A stretch of 36,317 nucleotides of DNA from an uncultured Bacteroidota bacterium (GTDB lineage Bacteria; Bacteroidota; Bacteroidia; Bacteroidales; F082). How positions within the stretch are numbered: position 1 is the stretch's first letter; every line of letters begins with the position of its first letter. The stretch covers positions 1 to 36,317 of the forward strand of contig CALDOI010000186.1 in NCBI GenBank assembly GCA_937912115.1, written 5' to 3'. Below are positions 519-21,658 of this stretch, piece after piece. The notes below the pieces were generated by a model. It was not told the origin of the DNA. It saw nothing but the letters and a program-made list of their open reading frames with translations, and did no database searches. The translations under genes and the position numbers were made by a program.

Positions 519-557
519 TAGATTTAATAGCTTTTAAAGCAAAATAAATAAGGTTTG

Positions 558-2804
558 ATGAAAACAAGAAGGGATTTTATTAAAGTTTCAGCGGCTGGCG
601 CAGGAGTAGCAGCATTAGGGCTTAGCGCCTTAAACTGGAACGGAGTTAACAAGGCTCAGGCATCAAATTCACAATATCCCGTCAGCGACGAAGAGATGAC
701 TTCATTTCCCACATACTGCGAAGTTTGTTTTTGGAAATGTGCCGGATGGACATATGTTGATAAAAACAACAATATTAGAAAAATCATAGGTAACAAAGAG
801 GATCCACATTGTAATGGAAGACTTTGTCCGCGTGGTACTGGTGGGGTTGGTATGTATACTGATAACGATAGGTTAAAAACACCTCTTATCAGAGAGACTG
901 TAGACGGCAAACAAGGGTTTAGAAAAGCTTCATGGAGTGAGGCACTTGATCTGGTAGCTTCAAAAATGAAAGGTGTTGCGGATAGTTATGGACCTGAGTC
1001 ATTTGCTCTATTTAATCACGGAGCACCAGGAGCGCATTTTAAACACCTACTTCACGCCTATGGTTCAGATAATGAAGGTGAACCAGCATGGGCACAATGT
1101 CGTGGACCACGTGAAGTTGGATTTTCAGCAACTTTTGGCAGCTGGATAGGATCTCCCGAACCAACAGATATTAGAGATACTGATTGCCTCGTATTAATAG
1201 GATCCCACATTGGTGAAAATATGCATAACGGACAGGTTCAGGAAGTTTCAACAATTATTGATCGTGGTGCTACAATAATCACTGTTGACCCACGACTTAG
1301 CACAATTGCCAGCAAATCGAAATACTGGCTTCCAATTAAACCGGCAACCGACTTAGCATTATTACTTTCGTGGATACATGTACTTATTTATGAAGGTATC
1401 TACGACAAGAATTATGTAGAACAATACACAATGGGATTTGATCAACTCAAAGAACATGTAAAAAATATGACACCCGAATGGGCTTATGGTATTACTACCA
1501 TTCAACCTGATGTAATAAGAAAAACTGCTCGTGAAATGGCCAATGCTTCACCTTCAGTTATTGTACATCCGGGACGACATGTTGTTTGGTACGGCGATGA
1601 TAGCCAACGTGAAAGAGCAATAGCTATTCTAAATGCCCTACTTGGGTCATGGGGAAAACGTGGTGGTTTTTATTTTAAAGAAGCAGTATCTGTCCCAAAA
1701 TATCCACACCCAAAATATCCTCATCCACATTGGAGCTGGAAAGACAATTTAGATGGAAAGTATCCACTTTCAGCAATGGGAATAACTACTGAGTTGCTTA
1801 AAGCTTCTATTCCCGAATACGAATACAAACACCAAATAAAAGCATGGCTAGTGGCAGGTACAAACCTACCTTTAACTATTCCTGACAAAGAGCTTTTTCA
1901 AACTGCAGTTCAGTCAATCGAATTTTTAGCAGTTGTTGATACAATGCCAATGGATATAACAGCCTATGCTGATGTTATACTTCCAGAATGCACCTATTTA
2001 GAAAGATATGACACAATACGGTCAGCACCTCATCGTGAGCCAAATATTGCACTTCGAATGCCAGCAGTTGAACCAAAATATGAAACAAAACCTTCATGGT
2101 GGATTGCAAAGCAGCTAGGCGAGAGACTTGGGTTAGGATCGTATTTCGATTATGATGATTATGAAGAAGTATTAGACTGGCAATTGAAAAAGCTAGGTAC
2201 TTCACTGGAAGAAATGCAAAAGATAGGTATAAAAAAATTCGACCGTAAATCGGGACCATTATACCTTGGCGAAGGTGAAGAATACTCCTTTAATACTAAT
2301 ACAGGCAAAATTGAACTTTATTCTACCGAGTTTGAAGATCATGGATTTGATCCTATGCCAAAATTTACGGAACATCCTCAACCTGAAGATGGTTTCTACC
2401 GGTTAATATATGGCCGAGCACCAATGCATACCTTCTCACGTACATCTAACAATCCAAACTTGTATGATCTTATGAACGAGAATGCAGTATGGGTAAATCC
2501 AAAGGTTGCCGAACTGTGGGATCTTAAAAAGGGTCAGGAAATTTGGTTACAAAACCAGGATGGAGTAGTATCTACTTTTCCTATTAAAGTAAGAATTACA
2601 GAAAGAATAAGATGGGATTCGATTTATATGGTTCATGGTTTTGGGCATACAAACAAAAAGCTAACTCGTACATATGGACGAGGTGCCAGTGACTCAGAAT
2701 TAATTACAAATATAATGACCGACCCAATGATGGGAGGTACAGGAATGAGAGGAAATTTTGTTACGTTTTTAACAACTGACCCAGGAAAGGAGGATGACGT
2801 ATGA
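558..2804 (+). CDS. Molybdopterin oxidoreductase catalytic subunit, polysulfide/thiosulfate reductase type (PsrA/PhsA family)
   Basis: This 748-aa protein is the catalytic subunit of a periplasmic Mo-bisMGD enzyme of the DMSO-reductase superfamily. A Tat signal (RRDFIK from residue 4, then a small hydrophobic stretch to about residue 24) indicates folded export. Cys54, Cys57, Cys61 and Cys90 form the N-terminal [4Fe-4S] site before LCPRG. Cys181 in WAQCRGP sits where the Mo ligand is expected. Length and the following ferredoxin and NrfD genes fit PsrABC/PhsABC. ATG at 558 is chosen over the in-frame TTG at 555 because it begins a normal Tat n-region (MKTRRDF). The stop overlaps the start of the next gene (ATGA). 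Substrate (polysulfide, thiosulfate, tetrathionate, or an oxidation run in reverse) cannot be fixed from sequence, but neighbours point to sulfur rather than arsenate or nitrate. Confidence 0.88.
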   Translation: MKTRRDFIKVSAAGAGVAALGLSALNWNGVNKAQASNSQYPVSDEEMTSFPTYCEVCFWKCAGWTYVDKNNNIRKIIGNKEDPHCNGRLCPRGTGGVGMYTDNDRLKTPLIRETVDGKQGFRKASWSEALDLVASKMKGVADSYGPESFALFNHGAPGAHFKHLLHAYGSDNEGEPAWAQCRGPREVGFSATFGSWIGSPEPTDIRDTDCLVLIGSHIGENMHNGQVQEVSTIIDRGATIITVDPRLSTIASKSKYWLPIKPATDLALLLSWIHVLIYEGIYDKNYVEQYTMGFDQLKEHVKNMTPEWAYGITTIQPDVIRKTAREMANASPSVIVHPGRHVVWYGDDSQRERAIAILNALLGSWGKRGGFYFKEAVSVPKYPHPKYPHPHWSWKDNLDGKYPLSAMGITTELLKASIPEYEYKHQIKAWLVAGTNLPLTIPDKELFQTAVQSIEFLAVVDTMPMDITAYADVILPECTYLERYDTIRSAPHREPNIALRMPAVEPKYETKPSWWIAKQLGERLGLGSYFDYDDYEEVLDWQLKKLGTSLEEMQKIGIKKFDRKSGPLYLGEGEEYSFNTNTGKIELYSTEFEDHGFDPMPKFTEHPQPEDGFYRLIYGRAPMHTFSRTSNNPNLYDLMNENAVWVNPKVAELWDLKKGQEIWLQNQDGVVSTFPIKVRITERIRWDSIYMVHGFGHTNKKLTRTYGRGASDSELITNIMTDPMMGGTGMRGNFVTFLTTDPGKEDDV

Positions 2805-3334
2805 GATACGGAATGGCTATCGACACAGCAAAATGTGTAGGATGTGGCGACTGTGTAGTTGCCTGTCAAACAGAAAATAACGTCCCTAACGGATATTGTC
2901 GCGATTGGGTAGTTGAAAACGTTAATGGCAGTTATCCTAATGTGGAAATTGAATTACGCTCCGAACGTTGTAATCATTGCGAAAACTCACCATGTGTAAG
3001 ATGTTGCCCAACGGGAGCAAGTCATATAGTTGAGGGTGGAATAGTTATGGTTACACACAATGAGTGTATTGGATGTGGTGCCTGTATTGAATCATGCCCT
3101 TACGACGCAAGATACTCGCATCCTGATGGATACGTTGACAAATGCACATTCTGCCAACACCGTTTGGAAAAAGGACTGAATACAGCATGTGTTGATGTAT
3201 GTCCTACATCATGTTTACATTTTGGCGACTTGGAAGATCCATTTAGTGATGTTTCTCTGGCTCTAAAAAACAGAACATGGAAAGTGTTAGCACCTGAAGC
3301 AGGAACAAAACCTCAATTATTTTTTCTTACTTAA
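2801..3334 (+). CDS. 4Fe-4S ferredoxin subunit of the PsrABC-type complex
   Basis: This 177-aa electron-transfer subunit links the Mo subunit to the membrane subunit. Sixteen cysteines form four cubane sites: Cys12/15/18/22, Cys57/60/65/69, Cys89/92/95/99 and Cys115/118/130/134. The pattern is that of PsrB, PhsB and DmsB-type subunits. There is no signal peptide, as expected for a subunit exported as a passenger of the Tat-bearing partner. Its ATG overlaps the upstream stop by four bases, indicating translational coupling. The membrane subunit starts 12 nt after its stop. Confidence 0.9.
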   Translation: MRYGMAIDTAKCVGCGDCVVACQTENNVPNGYCRDWVVENVNGSYPNVEIELRSERCNHCENSPCVRCCPTGASHIVEGGIVMVTHNECIGCGACIESCPYDARYSHPDGYVDKCTFCQHRLEKGLNTACVDVCPTSCLHFGDLEDPFSDVSLALKNRTWKVLAPEAGTKPQLFFLT

Positions 3335-3346
3335 TCAAGTATAGAT

Positions 3347-4288
3347 ATGAAAGAAGAATTATTTATTAGCGGACGTAATATTCCAAATATAGACCCTTTT
3401 CTTAACATTTGGCATTGGGAAATACCGGTATATTTATACCTTGGTGGTGTTTCGGCAGGAATTATGTTTTTTGCTGGTCTATTTACAATACTTGGAAAAG
3501 AAAAAGAGATGCCAACCACAGTAAAATGGGCAACATTCCTGGTTCCGGTGGCATTGGTTTTGGGGTTATTTGCCCTTTTCTTAGACCTTAAACATCAACT
3601 CTTTTTCTGGAGATTGTATACAACTATTCGTATTGAATCACCCATGTCGTGGGGTGCCTGGACATTAATGTTCATTACCCCTCTTTCAATGTTATGGGCA
3701 GCTTCATATATAAAAGAATTAATTCCCGGCTGGAAATGGAAAATAAAATTTGTTGATCAAATTGAAGATCTTGTTATTAAGAACCGAAAACCACTAGCAT
3801 GGGCAATGATGGCTTTAGCTGTAATATTGGGTGTTTACACAGGAATACTATTGTCAGCATTTAACGCACGCCCGCTTTGGAATACCAGTATTCTGGGACC
3901 TTTATTTTTAGTATCAGGATTATCAACCGGTTTGGCAGCAATAATTTGGATGTCGAAAAGTCATTTTGAGCGCTCAGTACTTACCAAGATTGACATTGTT
4001 CTAATAGGTGTTGAACTATTTTTAATAGTTCACCTTTTCATGGGATTCTTAGCAGGATCGGCAGTAAAAATTGAAGCCGCCGAACTATTCCTTGGTGGAG
4101 AATTTACAACCGCTTTTTGGGGGTTTGTAGTTATCCTCGGTTTAATTATTCCAGTTATACTTGAAATTCTCGAGTTAAGAGGTTTTAAAATTCCAATATG
4201 GATTCCTTCTCTCTTAGTGCTCTTTGGCGGATTGATATTCCGCTTTATAATGGTTGAAGCCGGACAAATAACCAGGTTCTTATATTGA
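3347..4288 (+). CDS. NrfD/PsrC-type membrane subunit
   Basis: This 313-aa integral membrane protein has about eight predicted hydrophobic helices, the usual NrfD/PsrC layout. The N-terminal WHWEIPVYLYLGGVSAG segment matches the family's first-helix signature. It anchors the Mo and ferredoxin subunits to the periplasmic face and exchanges electrons with quinone. It has no heme-ligand pattern of a cytochrome b anchor. It is the third gene of the operon and is followed by the sulfur-transport genes after 21 nt. Confidence 0.88.
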   Translation: MKEELFISGRNIPNIDPFLNIWHWEIPVYLYLGGVSAGIMFFAGLFTILGKEKEMPTTVKWATFLVPVALVLGLFALFLDLKHQLFFWRLYTTIRIESPMSWGAWTLMFITPLSMLWAASYIKELIPGWKWKIKFVDQIEDLVIKNRKPLAWAMMALAVILGVYTGILLSAFNARPLWNTSILGPLFLVSGLSTGLAAIIWMSKSHFERSVLTKIDIVLIGVELFLIVHLFMGFLAGSAVKIEAAELFLGGEFTTAFWGFVVILGLIIPVILEILELRGFKIPIWIPSLLVLFGGLIFRFIMVEAGQITRFLY

Positions 4289-4309: not shown

Positions 4310-4846
4310 ATGGACTCAATAACTAAAGAAAAACATATACCAAAGTATATAAACCCATACTTTGGCGGAGTGTTATTAGGCATCTTAATTTTATTTACCT
4401 TTTACATTACCGGACGAGGATTAGGAGCAAGTGGCGCCATTAAAAGTGCTGTTGTAACTACTGTTGACAAAGTAGCCCCAACACATACCGAATCACACAC
4501 TTTTTATAGTAAGTTTATCTCACGTGATAACTCTCCTATGTCGAGCTGGCTTGTTTTTGAGTCAATTGGTGTTCTACTTGGCGGATTATTATCGGGAGCT
4601 CTTTTTGGTCGTATTAAAAAACTTCGAGTTGAACATTCTCCAAAAATCACAAAAAAAACCAGGTTGATTGCTGCTGCAATAGGTGGTATCCTTTTCGGAT
4701 TTGGAAGCCAGTTTGGACGCGGATGTACAAGTGGTGCCGCACTAAGCGGAACAGCATCGTCTTCCTTTGGAGGACTAATAGTAATGCTGTTTTTATTTGG
4801 CACCGGATATGCCGTTGCCTATTTTTTTAGAAAATTATGGATTTAA
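4310..4846 (+). CDS. YeeE/YedE-family sulfur transport protein, first half
   Basis: This 178-aa membrane protein belongs to the YeeE/YedE (sulfur transport, DUF395) family. The family motif appears as FGRGCTSGAALSG with Cys139. In YeeE, a thiosulfate importer, conserved cysteines in such motifs relay the substrate through the membrane. The protein carries about half of a full-length YeeE. The next gene supplies the other half, so the two likely form a heteromeric transporter of the PmpA/PmpB type. An extracytoplasmic loop of about 40 residues follows the first helix. Co-transcription with the Mo enzyme suggests import of thiosulfate or a related sulfur species, which is inference. Confidence 0.82.
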   Translation: MDSITKEKHIPKYINPYFGGVLLGILILFTFYITGRGLGASGAIKSAVVTTVDKVAPTHTESHTFYSKFISRDNSPMSSWLVFESIGVLLGGLLSGALFGRIKKLRVEHSPKITKKTRLIAAAIGGILFGFGSQFGRGCTSGAALSGTASSSFGGLIVMLFLFGTGYAVAYFFRKLWI

Positions 4847-4860
4847 TAAATTAAAATATT

Positions 4861-5466
4861 ATGGGACCATTAATTCCTTTAGGACAAATTTCGAGTGGAT
4901 GGGATTTCATCATCGCTTTGATTATAGGTATTGCTTTTGGATTTATTCTTGAAGCTTCGGGCTTTTCTTCTTCGAGAAACATTACAGGTGTTTTTTATGG
5001 ATATAACTTTGTTGTATTAAGATTCTTTTTCACTGCAGTTATAGTTGCAATGATCGGGCTGGAATATTTCGATTATATGGGTTGGATTGACCTTAATATG
5101 ATTTACATACTCCCGACTTATCTAAGCCCTATGATAGTTGGAGCAATAATAATGGGTGTAGGTTTTATCATTGGTGGTTTTTGTCCGGGAACAAGTTATA
5201 CTGCAATAGCCATTGGCAAACTTGATGCTATTGTATTTACATTGGGATTGTTTTTAGGAATTTTTATTTTTTCAGAAATCTTTCCATATATTGAGGATTT
5301 TTATTACAGTGGTAATATGGGTAATATTACTATTAGTGAAGTACTTGGAATATCAAATAAACTATTTACCTTTATCTTTGTGATCATAGCAGTAATTGCA
5401 TTTTATGTAACCTGGCTGATTGAAAAGAAAGTAAGAAAAACCATCAACCCATATAAATTTGAGTAG
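4861..5466 (+). CDS. YeeE/YedE-family sulfur transport protein, second half
   Basis: This 201-aa membrane protein is the partner of the preceding gene, starting 14 nt after it. It carries the complementary YeeE/YedE motif IGGFCPGTSYTAIA with Cys108, and an N-terminal segment FGFILEASGFSSSRN typical of the family. A hydrophobic C-terminal helix ends in a basic cytoplasmic tail (EKKVRK). The following rhodanese-like gene starts 2 nt after its stop, which indicates tight coupling of transport and sulfur handling. Confidence 0.82.
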   Translation: MGPLIPLGQISSGWDFIIALIIGIAFGFILEASGFSSSRNITGVFYGYNFVVLRFFFTAVIVAMIGLEYFDYMGWIDLNMIYILPTYLSPMIVGAIIMGVGFIIGGFCPGTSYTAIAIGKLDAIVFTLGLFLGIFIFSEIFPYIEDFYYSGNMGNITISEVLGISNKLFTFIFVIIAVIAFYVTWLIEKKVRKTINPYKFE

Positions 5467-5468
5467 CC

Positions 5469-6080
5469 ATGAATAAGAATTATTTTATATTATTCGGTTT
5501 ATTGATTGTTCTTTCTGGAGGACTACTATTTCTTCCTGAAAAAACTAATTATGTTCAACAAAGTCCCGAAAGCCTAATGTGGGATATCGTACAACCAACC
5601 AGGTATATTAGTACCGATCAAGTCGCGAAATTAATAATAGAGAAAGATCCATTATTTCAGTTAGTAGACGTTCGTCCGGATTACGATTTTGAAGCATTCT
5701 CATTACCAAATTCATTTAATATACCCATTGATAGCATCCTCACTGATGAGGCAAATGATATATTTAACATCGAAGATGTGAATACTATTTTCTTATCAGA
5801 TGACGATATAAAAGCTGATCAGGCATGGGTTATAGCAAAAAGAATGGGCTACAAAAGTGTTTATGTTATGAAAGGCGGCCTTAATTGTTGGATACGCACA
5901 ATTATTCAACCACAAAAACCTTCCGAATCTGCTCCTATAACAGAATTCGAGCTTTATAATTTCCGAAAAGGTGCCAGCATATATTTTACTGGTGCTGAAT
6001 TATCAACCAATTCGGATATAAAGCAAGAGGTAAGTATTACACGAAAGAAAAAAGAAACTGTTGCTGAAGGCGGATGTTAA
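5469..6080 (+). CDS. Membrane-anchored rhodanese-fold protein lacking the catalytic cysteine, C-terminal TVAEGGC tail
   Basis: This 203-aa protein has an N-terminal hydrophobic anchor (residues 6-23), so the rest is predicted to lie in the periplasm. Residues 46-145 look like a rhodanese domain: LVDVRPDYDFEAFSLPNSFNIP (66-86), the IFLSDDD loop (107-113) and the final GGLNCW (136-141). In active rhodaneses the loop begins with the persulfide-carrying Cys. Here it is SDDDIKA, so classical activity should be absent. Cys140 and the C-terminal residue Cys203 remain. The tail SITRKKKETVAEGGC is basic and flexible and closely matches the tail of the next gene. A role in binding or handing over sulfane sulfur is inferred. 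Confidence 0.75.
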   Translation: MNKNYFILFGLLIVLSGGLLFLPEKTNYVQQSPESLMWDIVQPTRYISTDQVAKLIIEKDPLFQLVDVRPDYDFEAFSLPNSFNIPIDSILTDEANDIFNIEDVNTIFLSDDDIKADQAWVIAKRMGYKSVYVMKGGLNCWIRTIIQPQKPSESAPITEFELYNFRKGASIYFTGAELSTNSDIKQEVSITRKKKETVAEGGC

Positions 6081-6104
6081 TCAATAATCCATAATCTATT
6101 AATC

Positions 6105-6743
6105 ATGCATGTACACGAGATAAATCCAAAAAAAACCTTAATAACATTAACTATTTTCGTAATAGTAATAATTGTTGGTTTGTTAACAATAACAAATCCC
6201 AGGCTTGAATATAAACTTACACCTAATGAAACAGTTGAATTAGTTGTATGGGACGATAGTTATGTATTTCCATACGAACTTGAAGACGTAATAGTGGGAG
6301 CGGTTGATACTGTTATCCTTATTGATATTAGAAACACGTTTGACTTTAGTAGAGGGCATATTCCAGGAGCTGAAAATATAAGTGCCGTTGAACTTCTAAG
6401 TGAGGACAATATCAAACGATTAAAAAAGCTACAGAAAGAAGGAATTTGTGTTTTAATTTATGGGGAAACACAACTTCAGGCCAATGGCCCATGGATGGTG
6501 TTCAGGCAGCTGGGCTTTAGCAATGTTAAATCTTTGATGGGTGGTTATCAATATTATGCATTGTGGAAAGACAACCTTGCCGACTCATATGGCGATGATG
6601 GATACTTACTTGGTGCCGCTGACTTCGATTATTCAGATATAGCTTCAAATGTTAATATTGATGAAAATGAAGGTGATTCAGAAAAAACATCAATAACGGT
6701 TAATAGGCGCAAGAAGTCGACCGTTGCTGAGGGTGGTTGTTAG
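6105..6743 (+). CDS. Second membrane-anchored rhodanese-fold protein lacking the catalytic cysteine, C-terminal TVAEGGC tail
   Basis: This 212-aa paralogue of the preceding protein has an N-terminal anchor (about residues 11-30) and a rhodanese-like domain with ILIDIRNTFDFSRGHIPGAENI (71-92). The loop after the central strand is IYGETQLQ (118-125), again with no Cys in the active-site position. Its only cysteines are Cys115, just before the loop in the strand, and Cys212, the last residue. The tail (RRKKSTVAEGGC) is nearly identical to that of its partner, although the domains have diverged widely, which suggests selection on the tail. It is the last gene of the operon; a terminator follows within 25 nt. 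Confidence 0.75.
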   Translation: MHVHEINPKKTLITLTIFVIVIIVGLLTITNPRLEYKLTPNETVELVVWDDSYVFPYELEDVIVGAVDTVILIDIRNTFDFSRGHIPGAENISAVELLSEDNIKRLKKLQKEGICVLIYGETQLQANGPWMVFRQLGFSNVKSLMGGYQYYALWKDNLADSYGDDGYLLGAADFDYSDIASNVNIDENEGDSEKTSITVNRRKKSTVAEGGC

Positions 6744-9628: not shown

Positions 9629-9940
9629 ATGTCAATAAAAACAATTGCGGGAGTAGATATTAATGTAAACGATGAAGGTTACATGGAAGATGCTTCACAA
9701 TGGACCAAAGAAATTGCAAAAGAAATTGCAAAAGAAGAAGGTGTTGAACTTTCTGATAAACATTTTGAAGTAATTGAATTTGTAAGAGGAAAAGTAGCTG
9801 CTGGTGAGGGTTTAACAATTAGAGGAATTGGAAAATCAGGAGTTGTAAATGCAAAAGAATTTTACGCCCTATTCCCCGGAGCTCCATTAAAGAAAGCAAC
9901 AAAAATATCAGGTGTACCTAAACCAACATCTTGTATTTAA
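9629..9940 (+). CDS. DsrC/TusE-family sulfur relay protein with a single C-terminal cysteine
   Basis: This 103-aa protein is full length for the DsrC/TusE/RspA family. It keeps the family ending GVPKPTSCI, with Cys102 as the penultimate residue (Cys A, the persulfide or trisulfide carrier). The second DsrC cysteine (Cys B), eleven residues earlier, is replaced by Thr91 in KKATKISG, so it cannot form the intramolecular disulfide used in dissimilatory sulfite reduction. That makes it TusE/RspA-like by residue pattern. Its neighbours are an SQR-like flavoprotein, DUF1641 and a DsrE2-like protein, not the tusBCD set. It probably accepts sulfane sulfur on Cys102 from DsrE2 and passes it on. Confidence 0.88.
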   Translation: MSIKTIAGVDINVNDEGYMEDASQWTKEIAKEIAKEEGVELSDKHFEVIEFVRGKVAAGEGLTIRGIGKSGVVNAKEFYALFPGAPLKKATKISGVPKPTSCI

Positions 9941-15516: not shown

Positions 15517-18500
15517 ATGTTATTAATTAATTTTCTTATATGGAAAAACAGAGTTGTCAACTCAGGTTTTTCGCTATTTGTTGCTATGCTGTTATTATTA
15601 GCTCAGCCATCCTATTCACAACGTGAAGCAGATCGTTGGTATTTTGGCCATAATTGTGGGTTAGACTTTAGTACAGGTGAGCCGGTAGTTTTACACGATG
15701 GAGAAATAGATCATGCCTGGTCCGGTAGTGGAACAATATGTGATTCACTTAGTAATTTATTGTTTTACAATACCTACCGTCCAATTTATACCTCTCAGCA
15801 TAATATAATGGAGAATGGACAGGATTTCGATGAAAATGGTCCAGGCAATCAAAGTAATCTTATAGTTCCCTGGCCTGAATCTGATTCCTTATACTTCGTA
15901 TTTAAAATAAGTGATTATGATGTTCCGGGCGGAACAAGTGGTTTAAACTATAACATTGTAGATATAAATGAGAATAGTGGCTTAGGAGCTGTTGTATTAA
16001 AAGATATTATTTTACAAGATGCCGCAGGTGTTAATGGAATAATGACTGCAGCAAAACATAAAAATAAAAGGGATATCTGGATAATTACGCGTGACTTTAA
16101 ACGTGATAAGTATATCGTATTTCTTATTACTCCTGATGGAATCAATGAAACAGCTGTTAAATCTGATGCCCCTAATGTGTCGGAGCAGTGTGCTAACAAT
16201 GCTTATATGAAGCTTTCTTTTGATAAAAAGTACCTACTAACCACTTTTCAGGATTATATTTATGACAGGGTAGAAATAAGCAAATTTAATACTGAAAGTG
16301 GGGAAGTAGAATGGCAAAATAATCATGAAAATGATTGGTCTCCAGTAGGTTTAGAATTTTCACCTGATTCCAAATTTGTGTATATTTCGTATATTGTTAA
16401 TAGCGATTCAATACAAATAAGGCAATATGAAATGCAAAACATTGAGGATCCACTGTTATTTTCGAACTCAGCTATCATTATTGGTGGTAATATCGGAAGA
16501 GGGTTACAGCTGGCCACAGATGGTAAAATTTATTGTATAACCAGAGAGGATTATTTTAGTACATCAATGAATTATTTTGTAGGAGCTATTCATGAGCCCT
16601 GGAAATCAGGATTAGAATGCAATTACCAGGAACACGCTATTAATATGGCCCCAAGAGAAACCTCTGCTGCTATTCCCAACATACTATTGGACTACCTGTA
16701 CCGTTTTGACTTCGACGGCATTTGTGAAGGAGATCAGTTTCAGTTCACCTCATTTTTTAATCCTGTTCCTGATTCTATACGTTGGGATTTTAATGATTTC
16801 GGCTCTGGAATTAATACTATTTCTTATGAACTAAACCCTATACACATCTTTTCGGACGGAGGAACTTATGAGGTAGAAGCAGATGTATGGTATCCATCAG
16901 GCAGGTACGAGCATACCAGTCGTGAGGTGAAAGTTGAATATTCTCCCGAACCTGACCTTGGCGCTGATACAACAATTTGTAATGCTGCTGATATTATTTT
17001 AAATGCTGAGTGTGGCCCTCATTCCTATTTTTGGAGTAACGGTAATTTTGGAACAAGTCATATTACGGTTAGCGATACCGGTTGGTTTTGGGTGAAAGTA
17101 AGCAGTAATGGAGGTTGTATAGCATATGATTCGATACATATTTCAAAATTTGGCTCTGCGTTAGCTGATACTACTAATCTTATATTAAGCCCTACCACTT
17201 GTGGCGGAAGCACAGGTGCAATCCGTGGCCTTGAAATTACAGGTATTCCCCCATTTTCATATCAATGGGTGAATGATTTAGGAAATCCTGTTGCAAATAC
17301 TATTGACATGTACCAGCTCCCTGTTGGAAACTACACCTTGCAGGTAACTGACAGTAATGATTGTGTAACTGAACTGGGGCCTTATTCAATTATTGACGTA
17401 GGTGAAGTTCTTGTTGAAGGGGTTTCATTTCATCCTGAACATTGTAACCAGTCTGATGGAAGTATTATAGTTACTGCTACTTCAGGACTGGGAGATATGC
17501 TATATTATTCGATTGATAATGGGGCAAGCTATTTTCAAAACCTGGGGGTATTTACCGGATTATCGGGAGGGGTTTATGCTGTAAAAGTACATGATTCCAC
17601 TTGGTGTGGAGCTGCTTATGTAAATAATCCTATAATTATTGATAATACCCAAGGTCCAGAAATTACTAATGTAATAGTTACTCCTGCTTCAATTGGACAG
17701 GATGACGGGTCAATAAATATCATTGCATCATCACAGGATGATACCCTATATTTTTCAAATGATGCTGGAACTACTTATCAGATTAATAACGGTTTGTTTT
17801 CTAACTTACAGGGAGGTTTCTATACTTGTGTTGTAACAGATGAGCATGGCTGTGATACAACTTTTATTATCGAGGTTATGGAAAATATAACTGTTAGATT
17901 ACAGGCAATAGCAGGTGATGATCAGGTTTGTCCGGGTTTATCTGCCTATGTCCCTTTAACGGTTAATAATTTTGATGATGTAGCCGAGTTTAATATTACT
18001 CTTACTTTCGATGAAACATCTCTTATTTGTCAGGGCTTTTCAAATGCACATCAGGATATTGAAGATTCCTTGCAAGTATTTCTTTTTCCTGCTGAAGGGA
18101 AAGTTGAGTTGAAATGGAGTTCAATCCCAATATCTCTTCCTGCAAATGCTAATATTGCCGAGCTGGTATTTGAAACCATTAATATGAATGGTAGTTCGAT
18201 TGAGTGGGAAGGTTCTCCCGGAATAAGCTGGTTTTTGAATTCAACAGGAATATCAATCCCGGTTGATTATACCGTAGGAGAAGTTAAACTTTATAATGAA
18301 TTGGTTTTTTCAATATTACCGAACCAAAATGTTTGTGAAGGAGATATGATTAATCTACATCCTGTAGTCTGGTCTTACAACGGATCCGTCACTTATTTAT
18401 GGTCTTTACCAAATGGTGATACAAGTACCTCCGAATCAATAATAATAAACCAGGCCCAACAAAGCCAGGCAGGTAACTATTCAATCAAGGTTACCGACAC

Positions 18501-19056
18501 AGCTAATTGTTACAAGGAATCAGTTACTGTTTTAAATATTTATGAATCTCCTAAACCAGAATTTGCCGTACAGGATACAATTTTTACAGTTGACCCTATT
18601 GAACTTGATGCTGGTGCGGGATTTGCTTCTTATTGGTGGAATAACGGAGATATTACACAAACTAGTTGGGCAAATACTCAAGGTTGGTATCTGGCTCAGG
18701 TTGAATCTGTGGAAGGCTGTATTGGAGAAGATTCATCATATGTTTTTTTTTCCACTCCTGCTGAATTAATTAATGTTTATTTTCCAAATGCATTTACACC
18801 AAACGGTGATGGTTTGAATGATGAATTCAAGGTAATAATCTCATCTCCTAATATTGAGGCTTTCTCGATGTCTGTTTTTAACCGATGGGGTGCTATTATT
18901 TTTCACACAAATGATATATCCTTAGGCTGGGATGGTACTTACCAAGGAAAGATGTGCACTCCCGGATCCTATGTCTTTAAAATTAGCTACAATACTTCAA
19001 TAAATTCAAATACACAACCTGAAGCTAAGATAGGTACTGTGATGCTTGTGAACTAG
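15517..19056 (+). CDS. Large T9SS-secreted surface protein with PKD, SprB-repeat, cohesin-like and gliding-motility C-terminal domains
   Basis: This 1179-aa exported protein starts with a signal peptide (to about residue 35, ending SYSQ). Residues 38-395 look like a beta-propeller region opening with WYFGHNCGLDFSTG, a form common in Bacteroidota surface proteins. A PKD-like domain follows (400-478), then three SprB-type repeats (about 550-625, 630-705, 715-785) with DGSI and VTD.HGC marks, a cohesin-like domain (790-930), Ig-like segments (935-1078), and the gliding-motility-associated C-terminal domain (1085-1179) with FPNAFTPNGDGLNDEF and FNRWGAIIF, the type B T9SS sorting signal. It likely mediates adhesion or matrix building on the cell surface; ligand unknown. 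It stands alone. Confidence 0.88.
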   Translation: MLLINFLIWKNRVVNSGFSLFVAMLLLLAQPSYSQREADRWYFGHNCGLDFSTGEPVVLHDGEIDHAWSGSGTICDSLSNLLFYNTYRPIYTSQHNIMENGQDFDENGPGNQSNLIVPWPESDSLYFVFKISDYDVPGGTSGLNYNIVDINENSGLGAVVLKDIILQDAAGVNGIMTAAKHKNKRDIWIITRDFKRDKYIVFLITPDGINETAVKSDAPNVSEQCANNAYMKLSFDKKYLLTTFQDYIYDRVEISKFNTESGEVEWQNNHENDWSPVGLEFSPDSKFVYISYIVNSDSIQIRQYEMQNIEDPLLFSNSAIIIGGNIGRGLQLATDGKIYCITREDYFSTSMNYFVGAIHEPWKSGLECNYQEHAINMAPRETSAAIPNILLDYLYRFDFDGICEGDQFQFTSFFNPVPDSIRWDFNDFGSGINTISYELNPIHIFSDGGTYEVEADVWYPSGRYEHTSREVKVEYSPEPDLGADTTICNAADIILNAECGPHSYFWSNGNFGTSHITVSDTGWFWVKVSSNGGCIAYDSIHISKFGSALADTTNLILSPTTCGGSTGAIRGLEITGIPPFSYQWVNDLGNPVANTIDMYQLPVGNYTLQVTDSNDCVTELGPYSIIDVGEVLVEGVSFHPEHCNQSDGSIIVTATSGLGDMLYYSIDNGASYFQNLGVFTGLSGGVYAVKVHDSTWCGAAYVNNPIIIDNTQGPEITNVIVTPASIGQDDGSINIIASSQDDTLYFSNDAGTTYQINNGLFSNLQGGFYTCVVTDEHGCDTTFIIEVMENITVRLQAIAGDDQVCPGLSAYVPLTVNNFDDVAEFNITLTFDETSLICQGFSNAHQDIEDSLQVFLFPAEGKVELKWSSIPISLPANANIAELVFETINMNGSSIEWEGSPGISWFLNSTGISIPVDYTVGEVKLYNELVFSILPNQNVCEGDMINLHPVVWSYNGSVTYLWSLPNGDTSTSESIIINQAQQSQAGNYSIKVTDTANCYKESVTVLNIYESPKPEFAVQDTIFTVDPIELDAGAGFASYWWNNGDITQTSWANTQGWYLAQVESVEGCIGEDSSYVFFSTPAELINVYFPNAFTPNGDGLNDEFKVIISSPNIEAFSMSVFNRWGAIIFHTNDISLGWDGTYQGKMCTPGSYVFKISYNTSINSNTQPEAKIGTVMLVN

Positions 19057-20584: not shown

Positions 20585-21658
20585 CTATTTTCGATATTCT
20601 ATGTTATACTTTTTCAGGATTAATTCCCAATCATCGCTCTCTATTATTCCGAGTAGAATCTTGTCAATATGCTCGATTAACTCGTAGTTTGAAGATGCAA
20701 AACTGAAGTATTCTTTAGAGTAAGAGCTTGGAACAACTTGTATTTTTCCATCAAATTTATCTTTATGTGCAAAATAACTCAATACTGCATCATCATAAAC
20801 AAAAGCATCAATATTTCCATCATCAACAGCAATAAGCCCTTGTTCAACAGTTGGAAAATTTGAATATTTAATTTTATATCGGTTTAATAAATCACCCGTT
20901 CCCGACCCTGCAATAGAGCCAACTTTTGATTTCCTCAGATCATCAAAATCACTTATCTCGGTTTTCAGTTTATGGATAGTTAAACTTGAAGAAATACTGG
21001 CTGTTAATCCCGATATCATGATAACCGCTGTAAACATCCAAATAACCCCAATAACTCTACCAAAAGGAGTAACCGGCGATTTATCTCCATAACCCACGGT
21101 TGACATAGTTACTGCTGACCACCATATTCCTTCACCAATACCCACTACTCCTTTTCCAAACTGATCAGCGTTTTTCTTGCGCTCAAGAGCCCAAATAATA
21201 AGTCCAAAAATTGAAATTATCATTAAAAGGGGAATGAGAGATTTTAAGAATCCAATTGAGAATATATTAGAGATTAGAGTAATAAAACCCGAATCCCTTT
21301 CTGCTTTTGTGGCATATGATAAATTTGTAATATAATATGGTTGTGTAAAACCAAATTGCTTAATCCTGGATGAGGTTACGGTTAAAGGAGAAATTGCAAT
21401 GTCGATATCCCCATTTTTTATGGCATCTAACAATCCAGGTAGTTCATATTCAATCAATGTATATTTTGTGTTTAACGAATCTGCTATTTCTTTCCATAGA
21501 TCCATGGATACACCGATATATTGATTGTTACTTTCAATAATAAATGGAGGTTTTATTTGAAATCCAACTTTTAGCACATCAGTATTGGTGTATGCTTGGG
21601 TAGAACACATTATTATCATCAGTATTACTACAAAAATTTGTTTAAAATAAGTATTCAT
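20585..21658 (-). CDS. Prokaryotic ionotropic glutamate-receptor-type potassium channel (GluR0-like)
   Basis: This 357-aa protein combines a split periplasmic solute-binding domain with a two-helix pore. Order: signal peptide (1-22), binding lobe 1 (28-120) with Arg98 in the TSSRIKQFGFTQPYY ligand motif, first membrane helix (about 137-157), pore loop with selectivity filter STVGYGD (186-192), second helix (about 202-222), and the second lobe (245-345) with DAFVYDD. The TVGYG filter predicts potassium selectivity, as in GluR0. Arg98 suggests an amino acid or similar carboxylate ligand. It stands alone with no obvious partner. Confidence 0.88.
   Translation of the reverse strand: MNTYFKQIFVVILMIIMCSTQAYTNTDVLKVGFQIKPPFIIESNNQYIGVSMDLWKEIADSLNTKYTLIEYELPGLLDAIKNGDIDIAISPLTVTSSRIKQFGFTQPYYITNLSYATKAERDSGFITLISNIFSIGFLKSLIPLLMIISIFGLIIWALERKKNADQFGKGVVGIGEGIWWSAVTMSTVGYGDKSPVTPFGRVIGVIWMFTAVIMISGLTASISSSLTIHKLKTEISDFDDLRKSKVGSIAGSGTGDLLNRYKIKYSNFPTVEQGLIAVDDGNIDAFVYDDAVLSYFAHKDKFDGKIQVVPSSYSKEYFSFASSNYELIEHIDKILLGIIESDDWELILKKYNIEYRK

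Follow-up and report, generated by a model that had tools for sequence, protein, structure and literature searches.

Rhodanese-fold proteins with a C-terminal Gly-Gly-Cys arm, encoded beside Psr-type reductase and split YeeE genes, are candidate periplasmic sulfur carriers of Bacteroidota

Gene organization of the locus

The window (the whole stretch of DNA analysed, 36,317 nucleotides) is an entire contig from an uncultured Bacteroidota bacterium, and carries on its plus strand a gene run in the order PsrA, PsrB, PsrC/NrfD, YeeE1, YeeE2, Rhd1, and Rhd2. According to its family matches, the first gene (555..2804) encodes a PsrA-like molybdopterin oxidoreductase with a Tat signal-like N-terminus, for which the closest solved chain is 2vpw, deposited as a thiosulfate reductase (E 1.7e-184, 618 bits), and whose score against the NCBIfam model PhsA (468.9 bits) is under the cut-off of 694. 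A family match likewise identifies a PsrB-like 4Fe-4S subunit (2801..3334), which is followed by a PsrC/NrfD-like membrane subunit (3347..4288; Pfam NrfD, E 5.5e-45). Here, the YeeE/TsuA sulfur channel (PF04143, Sulf_transp) is split between two genes, with YeeE1 (4310..4846) matching family positions 170-308 (E 2.9e-21) as a PmpA-like C-terminal half, and YeeE2 (4861..5466) matching positions 2-156 (E 1.3e-15) as a PmpB-like N-terminal half. The run closes with Rhd1 (5469..6080), a protein of 203 aa, and its diverged paralogue Rhd2 (6105..6743), which has 212 aa and the same architecture.

Behind the rhodaneses lies a further gene run of SQR-like, DUF1641, DsrC, DsrE2, and TatC-like genes. 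Its DsrC/TusE homologue (9629-9940) has one Cys next to the C-terminus (..PTSCI), and each of eight relatives within the 80 loci described below also has a single Cys near its end. This DsrC gene is separate from Rhd1 and Rhd2, neither of which gave a Pfam match to DsrC (PF04358). Elsewhere in the window, positions 15517-19056 encode a protein of 1179 aa with a PKD domain and a CHU_C type IX secretion signal domain, and positions 20588-21658 a ligand-gated ion channel-like protein, whose SBP_bac_3, Lig_chan, and Ion_trans_2 domains make up, in a bacterium, an architecture like that of ionotropic glutamate receptors.

Structural features of Rhd1 and Rhd2

A sequence-only reading of this DNA had described two rhodanese-fold proteins that lack the loop Cys and share identical ends, and on this the ORFs, the Pfam matches, and our alignments all agree. 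Both proteins match Pfam Rhodanese (PF00581) above the cut-off (E 2.7e-13 for Rhd1 and 1.1e-13 for Rhd2), with no other Pfam family above cut-off in either, and a Foldseek search with the Rhd1 AlphaFold2 model gave 3gk5 as the best match (E 1.7e-6), followed mostly by other rhodaneses. The former active-site loop of Rhd1 reads SDDDIKA (S110-A116; 5796..5816), and in the alignment the position of the catalytic Cys is taken by Ser (S110) in Rhd1 and by Gly (G120) in Rhd2; the fold is thus present and the catalytic loop Cys absent in both window proteins. At the C-terminus, the two sequences finish with exactly TVAEGGC before the stop (6057-6077 in Rhd1 and 6720..6740 in Rhd2), encoded with different codons at four of the seven positions. 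At about 19% identity between the core domains, overall similarity does not account for the identical tails, and the claim that the domains have diverged around a conserved tail is borne out.

In the AlphaFold2 models, both proteins begin with an N-terminal helix (residues 3-20 in Rhd1 and 8-30 in Rhd2). The helix that goes with the membrane anchor proposed earlier is therefore there in the models, and its anchoring role, judged from the hydrophobic sequence, is a putative one. At the other end, a helix that follows the rhodanese domain (157-174 in Rhd1 and 176-182 in Rhd2) leads into coil, which in the Rhd1 model runs from residue 175 onward and takes in the whole basic C-terminal arm (residues 176-203; 5994..6077), with Cys203 as its last residue. 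Over the final ten-residue blocks, the mean pLDDT values are 76, 53 (181-190), 62 (191-200), and 46 (201-203) for Rhd1, and 77, 56, 57, 60, and 42 for Rhd2, and from this low-confidence coil both tails are probably disordered. A buried and structural tail, which the earlier reading had set against its own proposal of a working arm, is not what AlphaFold2 predicts. The median net charge over residues -20..-4 is +6 in 81 Rhd1 sequences.

Conservation of the terminal cysteine

A scan of named genomes gave 158 relatives, and we examined the best 80 of these, which had been retrieved with a motif that lies within the rhodanese domain and not in the tail. They belong to Bacteroidota or its subgroups, with a few from Chlorobiota, and come from 79 metagenome-assembled genomes and one isolate (L141, Sunxiuqinia elliptica). 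When the window protein is included, the terminal Cys of Rhd1 is preceded by Gly in 81/81 sequences, with the endings GGC (64), GGGC (9), GGCS (3), GC (2), GCS (1), and longer Gly runs (2); single-Gly ends (EGC, DGC) occur in 3/81 and are common in the deeper relatives described next. In 53 of the 81, the tail Cys is the sole Cys of the protein, and after removal of redundancy (identity of at least 90%) the tail Cys is found in 68/68, of which 44 have no other Cys. By comparison, the catalytic position of these 81 proteins holds Ser in 72, Cys in 3, Gly in 3, and Ala in 3. The tail Cys is present in 50/51 Rhd2 sequences as well (window included; the exception, L074, stops early), where the catalytic position is Gly (38), Ala (8), Ser (4), or Tyr (1). 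Alignment of the loops, which had been suggested as a check, hence confirms the loss of the catalytic Cys in 78/81 Rhd1 and 51/51 Rhd2.

Deeper relatives (n = 35) comprised the best 29 new loci found when 395 genomes of the phylum were searched, and six from another search. All 35 end with GC or GGC(S), and the catalytic position is Ser (16), Ala (10), Gly (8), or Cys (1, L208), such that the Cys is absent in 34/35; in 30/35, the rhodanese part has no Cys other than that of the tail. The profile for this deep search included the tail, and so the 35-sequence set could be biased, though the matches for L189, L190, and L195 ended before the tail and it was present nonetheless. Any match at all was seen in 324 of the 395 genomes, many of them weak, and the weak ones were taken as other rhodaneses. 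A chance origin of the shared tail is ruled out by the 81/81 Rhd1 and 35/35 deeper sequences. In the genome, the restricted pattern GNNGGNGGNTGYTRR occurs at 11 sites versus 6 for the reversed pattern, and the three of the 11 that end an ORF are all in rhodaneses. In the consensus of the aligned sequences, no Cys or His of the tail is conserved apart from the terminal Cys. Following a weak TsoB match, selenocysteine was also considered as a replacement for the tail Cys; none was seen in the sequences examined, and the TsoB motif given in PMC13188914 is unlike the rhodanese tail. Also worth mention is a decayed paralogue in locus L032 (7908-8516), which has no Pfam match at E 0.001 and still ends in GGC.

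Other tailed rhodaneses in the genome

Seven rhodanese proteins (eight domain matches) were found in the same genome, of which five are tailed. Besides Rhd1 and Rhd2, these are a two-domain protein of 301 aa that has a catalytic-type Cys and ends in SSDGGC, and a pair of lipoproteins (163 and 165 aa) that end in EEGGCGG and ESGGCGG and adjoin a full-length YeeE. The two without a tail are a two-domain lipoprotein (346 aa) and a protein of 338 aa that is MnmH-like by eye. A second sulfur locus (L150, contig C197, 9973-12682, minus strand) holds the full-length YeeE, the two GGCGG lipoprotein rhodaneses, and a DsrE-like gene, and downstream of it are iron-sulfur flavoproteins that by eye are Hdr/Qmo-like.

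Relatives of the 163 aa lipoprotein were taken from 30 loci, and among those with at least 100 bits (query included) the loop Cys and the tail are found together in 16/16, whereas the next two matches (87 and 70 bits) have the loop Cys and no tail. In the same listing, the tail is absent from 9/9 complete two-domain lipoproteins and from 13/13 other rhodaneses. Homologues with an intact loop Cys and a freely varying tail had been named as evidence against a working tail, and these are absent in near relatives, as the three Rhd1 with a catalytic-position Cys (3/81; L063, L065, and L073) and the lipoprotein family (16/16) all keep it; they are seen in remote rhodaneses only.

Split YeeE and reductase neighbors

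YeeE2 is immediately upstream of Rhd1 in 76 of the 80 loci, and the full chain PsrA-PsrB-PsrC-YeeE1-YeeE2 is found in 63/80, with some of the others cut by contig ends. Both halves of the channel have a conserved pore Cys, given that the motif GGFCPGT is found in 71/73 YeeE2 relatives and that YeeE1 has exactly one Cys in 69/71, though a tighter YeeE1 motif fitted only 53/71. In 30/80 loci, three of which have a contig end within 320 bases, no Rhd2 was recognised downstream of Rhd1, and the tail is kept. In a further set of 21 loci, 15 have YeeE2 and the rhodanese fused into one protein, and the tail is retained in 15/15 fusions.

A second operon type, found in 13 of these 21 loci (L031-L035, L212-L218, and L226), includes a cytochrome of the octaheme tetrathionate reductase family (564 bits versus a cut-off of 375, with two scanned and the others assigned by similarity and their eight heme motifs), together with cytochrome b561, YeeE1, a YeeE2-rhodanese fusion ending in GGC and, in some cases, a GGC-tailed two-domain rhodanese lipoprotein. 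Both operon types occur in L035, and in L223 a fusion beside PsrABC ends in REGC like its PsrABC relatives. PsrABC is therefore not a fixed partner, as the octaheme tetrathionate reductase can replace it, and the linkage to psrABC and YeeE genes that had been anticipated holds for most loci but is bound neither to that reductase nor, in a few operons, to YeeE. Among the literature matches listed, we recognised no description of an operon that combines the octaheme cytochrome, cytochrome b561, and a split YeeE with such a fusion, and in open-licence literature we found none of a YeeE partner or YeeE fusion with a Cys-tailed rhodanese.

As for the operons without YeeE, PsrC is directly upstream of Rhd1 in L097, L114, and L187 with no YeeE between, and neither Psr nor YeeE is beside the rhodanese in L126 (L128 begins at a contig edge). 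A split YeeE is encoded elsewhere in the genomes of L097 and L114, whereas the 99% complete genome G356 (locus L187) has no Sulf_transp match. All four loci keep the Cys tail, and these YeeE-less operons, G356 included, exclude YeeE as the sole reader of it. Here, we noticed in a post hoc comparison that 3 to 5 of the 8 residues before the Cys are acidic in L097, L114, L187, and L126, while three or more acidic residues are found there in 0/77 YeeE-linked Rhd1 and 0/34 other deep relatives; outside those sets, L048 has YeeE and yet four acidic residues in both tails. From this after-the-fact comparison of sequences, the terminal Cys would appear to serve something besides YeeE, most simply the reductase, and in operons with YeeE the residues that precede the Cys may be adapted to that channel.

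Co-variation of the paired tails

Over the last 12 residues, Rhd1 and Rhd2 share an identity of 0.756 within the same genome and 0.473 between genomes (44 nonredundant pairs); the within-genome value was never attained in 20,000 permutations, for which the maximum was 0.549. The same-genome excess amounts to at most 0.037 in 12-residue windows up to residue 180, and rises to 0.144 at residues 181-192. Since the domain windows have no such excess, the tail match is not a matter of how closely the genomes are related. Moreover, the degenerate residues that are shared have the same codon in 194/399 cases, where codon usage predicts 186.4 (sd 9.1), which means that the likeness is kept at the level of protein and not of DNA. 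Gene conversion as the overall cause of the matching tails is rejected by these codon counts, though the L106 and L111 pairs, which are nearly identical in DNA at the tail, could be recent conversions.

In nine genomes, the Rhd1 tail matches that of Rhd2 with 0.83 identity and that of a lipoprotein rhodanese from another locus with 0.30. Tails thus match by operon and not by genome, and so the reader of the tail seems to belong to the operon itself. L047, L108, and L134 encode a third operon protein with the same kind of ending, a rhodanese of two domains that by eye has a catalytic-type Cys.

Proposed function and alternative explanations

By analogy with SoxY, we suggest that Rhd1 and Rhd2 are membrane-anchored periplasmic sulfur carriers with a swinging arm on a rhodanese scaffold, a reading to which we give a probability of roughly 0.6. 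The rhodanese domain, having lost its catalytic Cys, would serve as a scaffold and docking body, and the working group would be the Cys at the end of the flexible C-terminal arm. Its thiol might pick up sulfane sulfur or a thiosulfate-derived group as an arm-bound S-S bond, after which the arm would swing to and from a quinone-linked reductase (PsrABC in the window and the octaheme tetrathionate reductase in sister operons), at whose active site this bond is cleaved or formed. In operons with a split YeeE1/YeeE2 channel, its mouth could be a second station, with the pore cysteines of YeeE relaying sulfur across the membrane. We infer the export topology of the two proteins, the persulfidation of the terminal Cys, and the use of the reductase and YeeE as stations; carriage of sulfane sulfur on the arm, already proposed in the sequence-only reading, is likewise a conjecture drawn from sequence.

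Several lines of evidence point to a carrier. The terminal Cys is near-universal while the catalytic Cys is mostly lost, and it is often the only Cys, at the end of a predicted coil. The paralogous tails co-vary at the protein level in an operon-specific manner that is absent in the domain, YeeE2 is upstream or fused, the module occurs with two unrelated types of reductase, and the rhodaneses beside the full-length YeeE of the same genome end in the SoxY motif GGCGG. Anatomy, conservation, the low-confidence tail of the models, operon coupling, fusion, and tail co-variation are results of this analysis, and they give good support to the earlier proposal that the Cys at the end of a swinging arm is the working part. 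The reading is weakened by YeeE not being obligatory (L097, L114, L187, L126, and G356), by the partial replacement of the basic stretch with acidic residues in operons that lack it, and by a catalytic-position Cys in L063, L065, L073, and L208. We also count against it a Cys anywhere in the loop region in 4/81 Rhd1 and 6/51 Rhd2, and two-domain rhodaneses without a tail near such operons (L088, L091, L111, L126, and L225). Without YeeE, carriage would still be feasible, as the reductase remains as a station.

Instead of carrying sulfur, the terminal Cys could form a disulfide staple, bind metal, or sense the redox state. As a docking motif, the tail might pin the rhodanese to the reductase or YeeE with the Cys in a structural role, and this fits in that operon-specific co-variation demands a reader but not sulfur chemistry, that the fusion shows YeeE2 and the rhodanese working side by side, and that the tail charge differs where YeeE is missing. 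However, a fused protein needs no staple to stay with YeeE2 and yet the Cys tail is found in 15/15 fusions, and the tail also persists in the 30 loci with no recognised Rhd2 downstream; we regard a staple as unlikely, though the strongest of the alternatives. A role of the Cys in binding metal or heme, or in gating YeeE as a redox sensor, is more improbable still. A single invariant Cys on a mobile arm would suit such a role, and the YeeE-type SoxT1B takes part in signaling in another organism (PMC11582611), but the tail has no second conserved Cys or His, the arm recurs beside two unrelated reductases and a full-length YeeE, and in G356 there is no YeeE to gate.

Two other explanations seem to us very improbable, and equally so. 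A lipidation, sorting, or covalent attachment signal, of which the sequence-only reading had entertained lipidation and attachment, would exploit the chemical aptness of Cys-terminal ends on proteins that look exported. It is disfavored in that most of them, judged by eye, already possess a membrane helix or lipobox, in that S, E, or GG may follow the Cys, and in that tails which match within the operon (0.83) and not between loci (0.30) are unexpected from a genome-wide enzyme. The other, an Rhd1-Rhd2 heterodimer joined by a tail-tail disulfide, would account for the co-variation in the 44 pairs, but the tail is kept in the 30/80 loci without a recognised Rhd2 (three with a contig end close by), and L047, L108, and L134 each have three proteins in the operon with the same kind of ending. 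Least credible is a clipped tail whose exposed GG becomes a thiocarboxylate, as in carriers of the ThiS/QbsE type that use a C-terminal GG thiocarboxylate: GG does precede the last residue in most sequences, but the invariant residue is the Cys, single-Gly ends occur in 3/81 Rhd1 and many deep relatives, and the fold is rhodanese and not beta-grasp.

Returning to sulfur carriage, a wider picture can be put forward tentatively, at slightly less than even odds, of a Sox-independent and widespread periplasmic carrier system in Bacteroidota, in which dead rhodaneses would offer bound sulfur to interchangeable reductases (PsrABC or the octaheme tetrathionate reductase), mostly onward through a split YeeE, each operon's arm having co-evolved with its own readers. 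If true, this would offer an explanation of how protein-bound sulfur may be handled in the periplasm of Bacteroidota that lack Sox, and split YeeE channels would gain a candidate periplasmic partner that in some lineages is physically fused to them.

Comparison with known sulfur carriers

In the open-licence literature searched, we recognised no description of Cys-tailed rhodaneses. DsrC, with which the tail had been compared, belongs to the DsrC/TusE proteins that carry sulfur on a Cys of the C-terminal arm, and the likeness stands to that extent; these are cytosolic and of an unrelated fold, and by analogy SoxY is the closer counterpart of the Rhd1/Rhd2 arm, as two rhodaneses of the genome end in GGCGG. 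In the Sox system, SoxY-bound sulfur is acted upon by the Mo enzyme SoxCD. The Rhd1/Rhd2 type differs from SoxY (PF13501) in its rhodanese fold with an N-terminal helix anchor, in a basic stretch that usually precedes GGC and is not a SoxY feature, and in a Cys that is usually last. SoxY is described as a carrier of the periplasm whose Cys is flanked by Gly and lies, close to the C-terminus, on a 'swinging arm' (PMC6067878, PMC11237559), and its C-terminal GGCGG is the sulfur-binding motif (PMC6067878). Rhd1 and Rhd2 similarly have a C-terminal arm with a Gly-flanked Cys in low-confidence coil, though the exact GGCGG is on the two further rhodaneses and not on them. SoxY itself gave no match (PF13501) in this genome and was found in 1/61 genomes, and because the SoxY-like ORF concerned (G046) does not end in GGCGG, the SoxY motif is taken here from PMC6067878. 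A link to YeeE is plausible because SoxY-bound sulfur is proposed to pass to the YeeE relative SoxT (PMC11582611). For their part, YeeE1 and YeeE2 match the two halves of the YeeE/TsuA family, in the manner described for PmpA/PmpB.

With respect to the scaffold, a useful comparison is with chain 1qxn, 'sulfide dehydrogenase', which the Rhd1 profile matches with E 4.9e-5. Sud of Wolinella is a periplasmic rhodanese that serves a Psr-type reductase and works with a loop Cys. Rhd1 and Rhd2, in contrast, have Ser or Gly in place of that Cys and carry the terminal Cys arm. LbpA is a cytosolic protein with a lipoyl domain and a second conserved Cys, and differs in this from the proposed Rhd1/Rhd2 carriers. 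In this lipoate-binding protein of the sHdr pathway, a C-terminal Cys is 'often neighbored by glycine residues', which the authors compare with SoxY (PMC6067878). Should the carrier reading prove true, the dead rhodaneses would be another scaffold, beside SoxY, DsrC, and LbpA, that holds sulfur on a C-terminal Cys.
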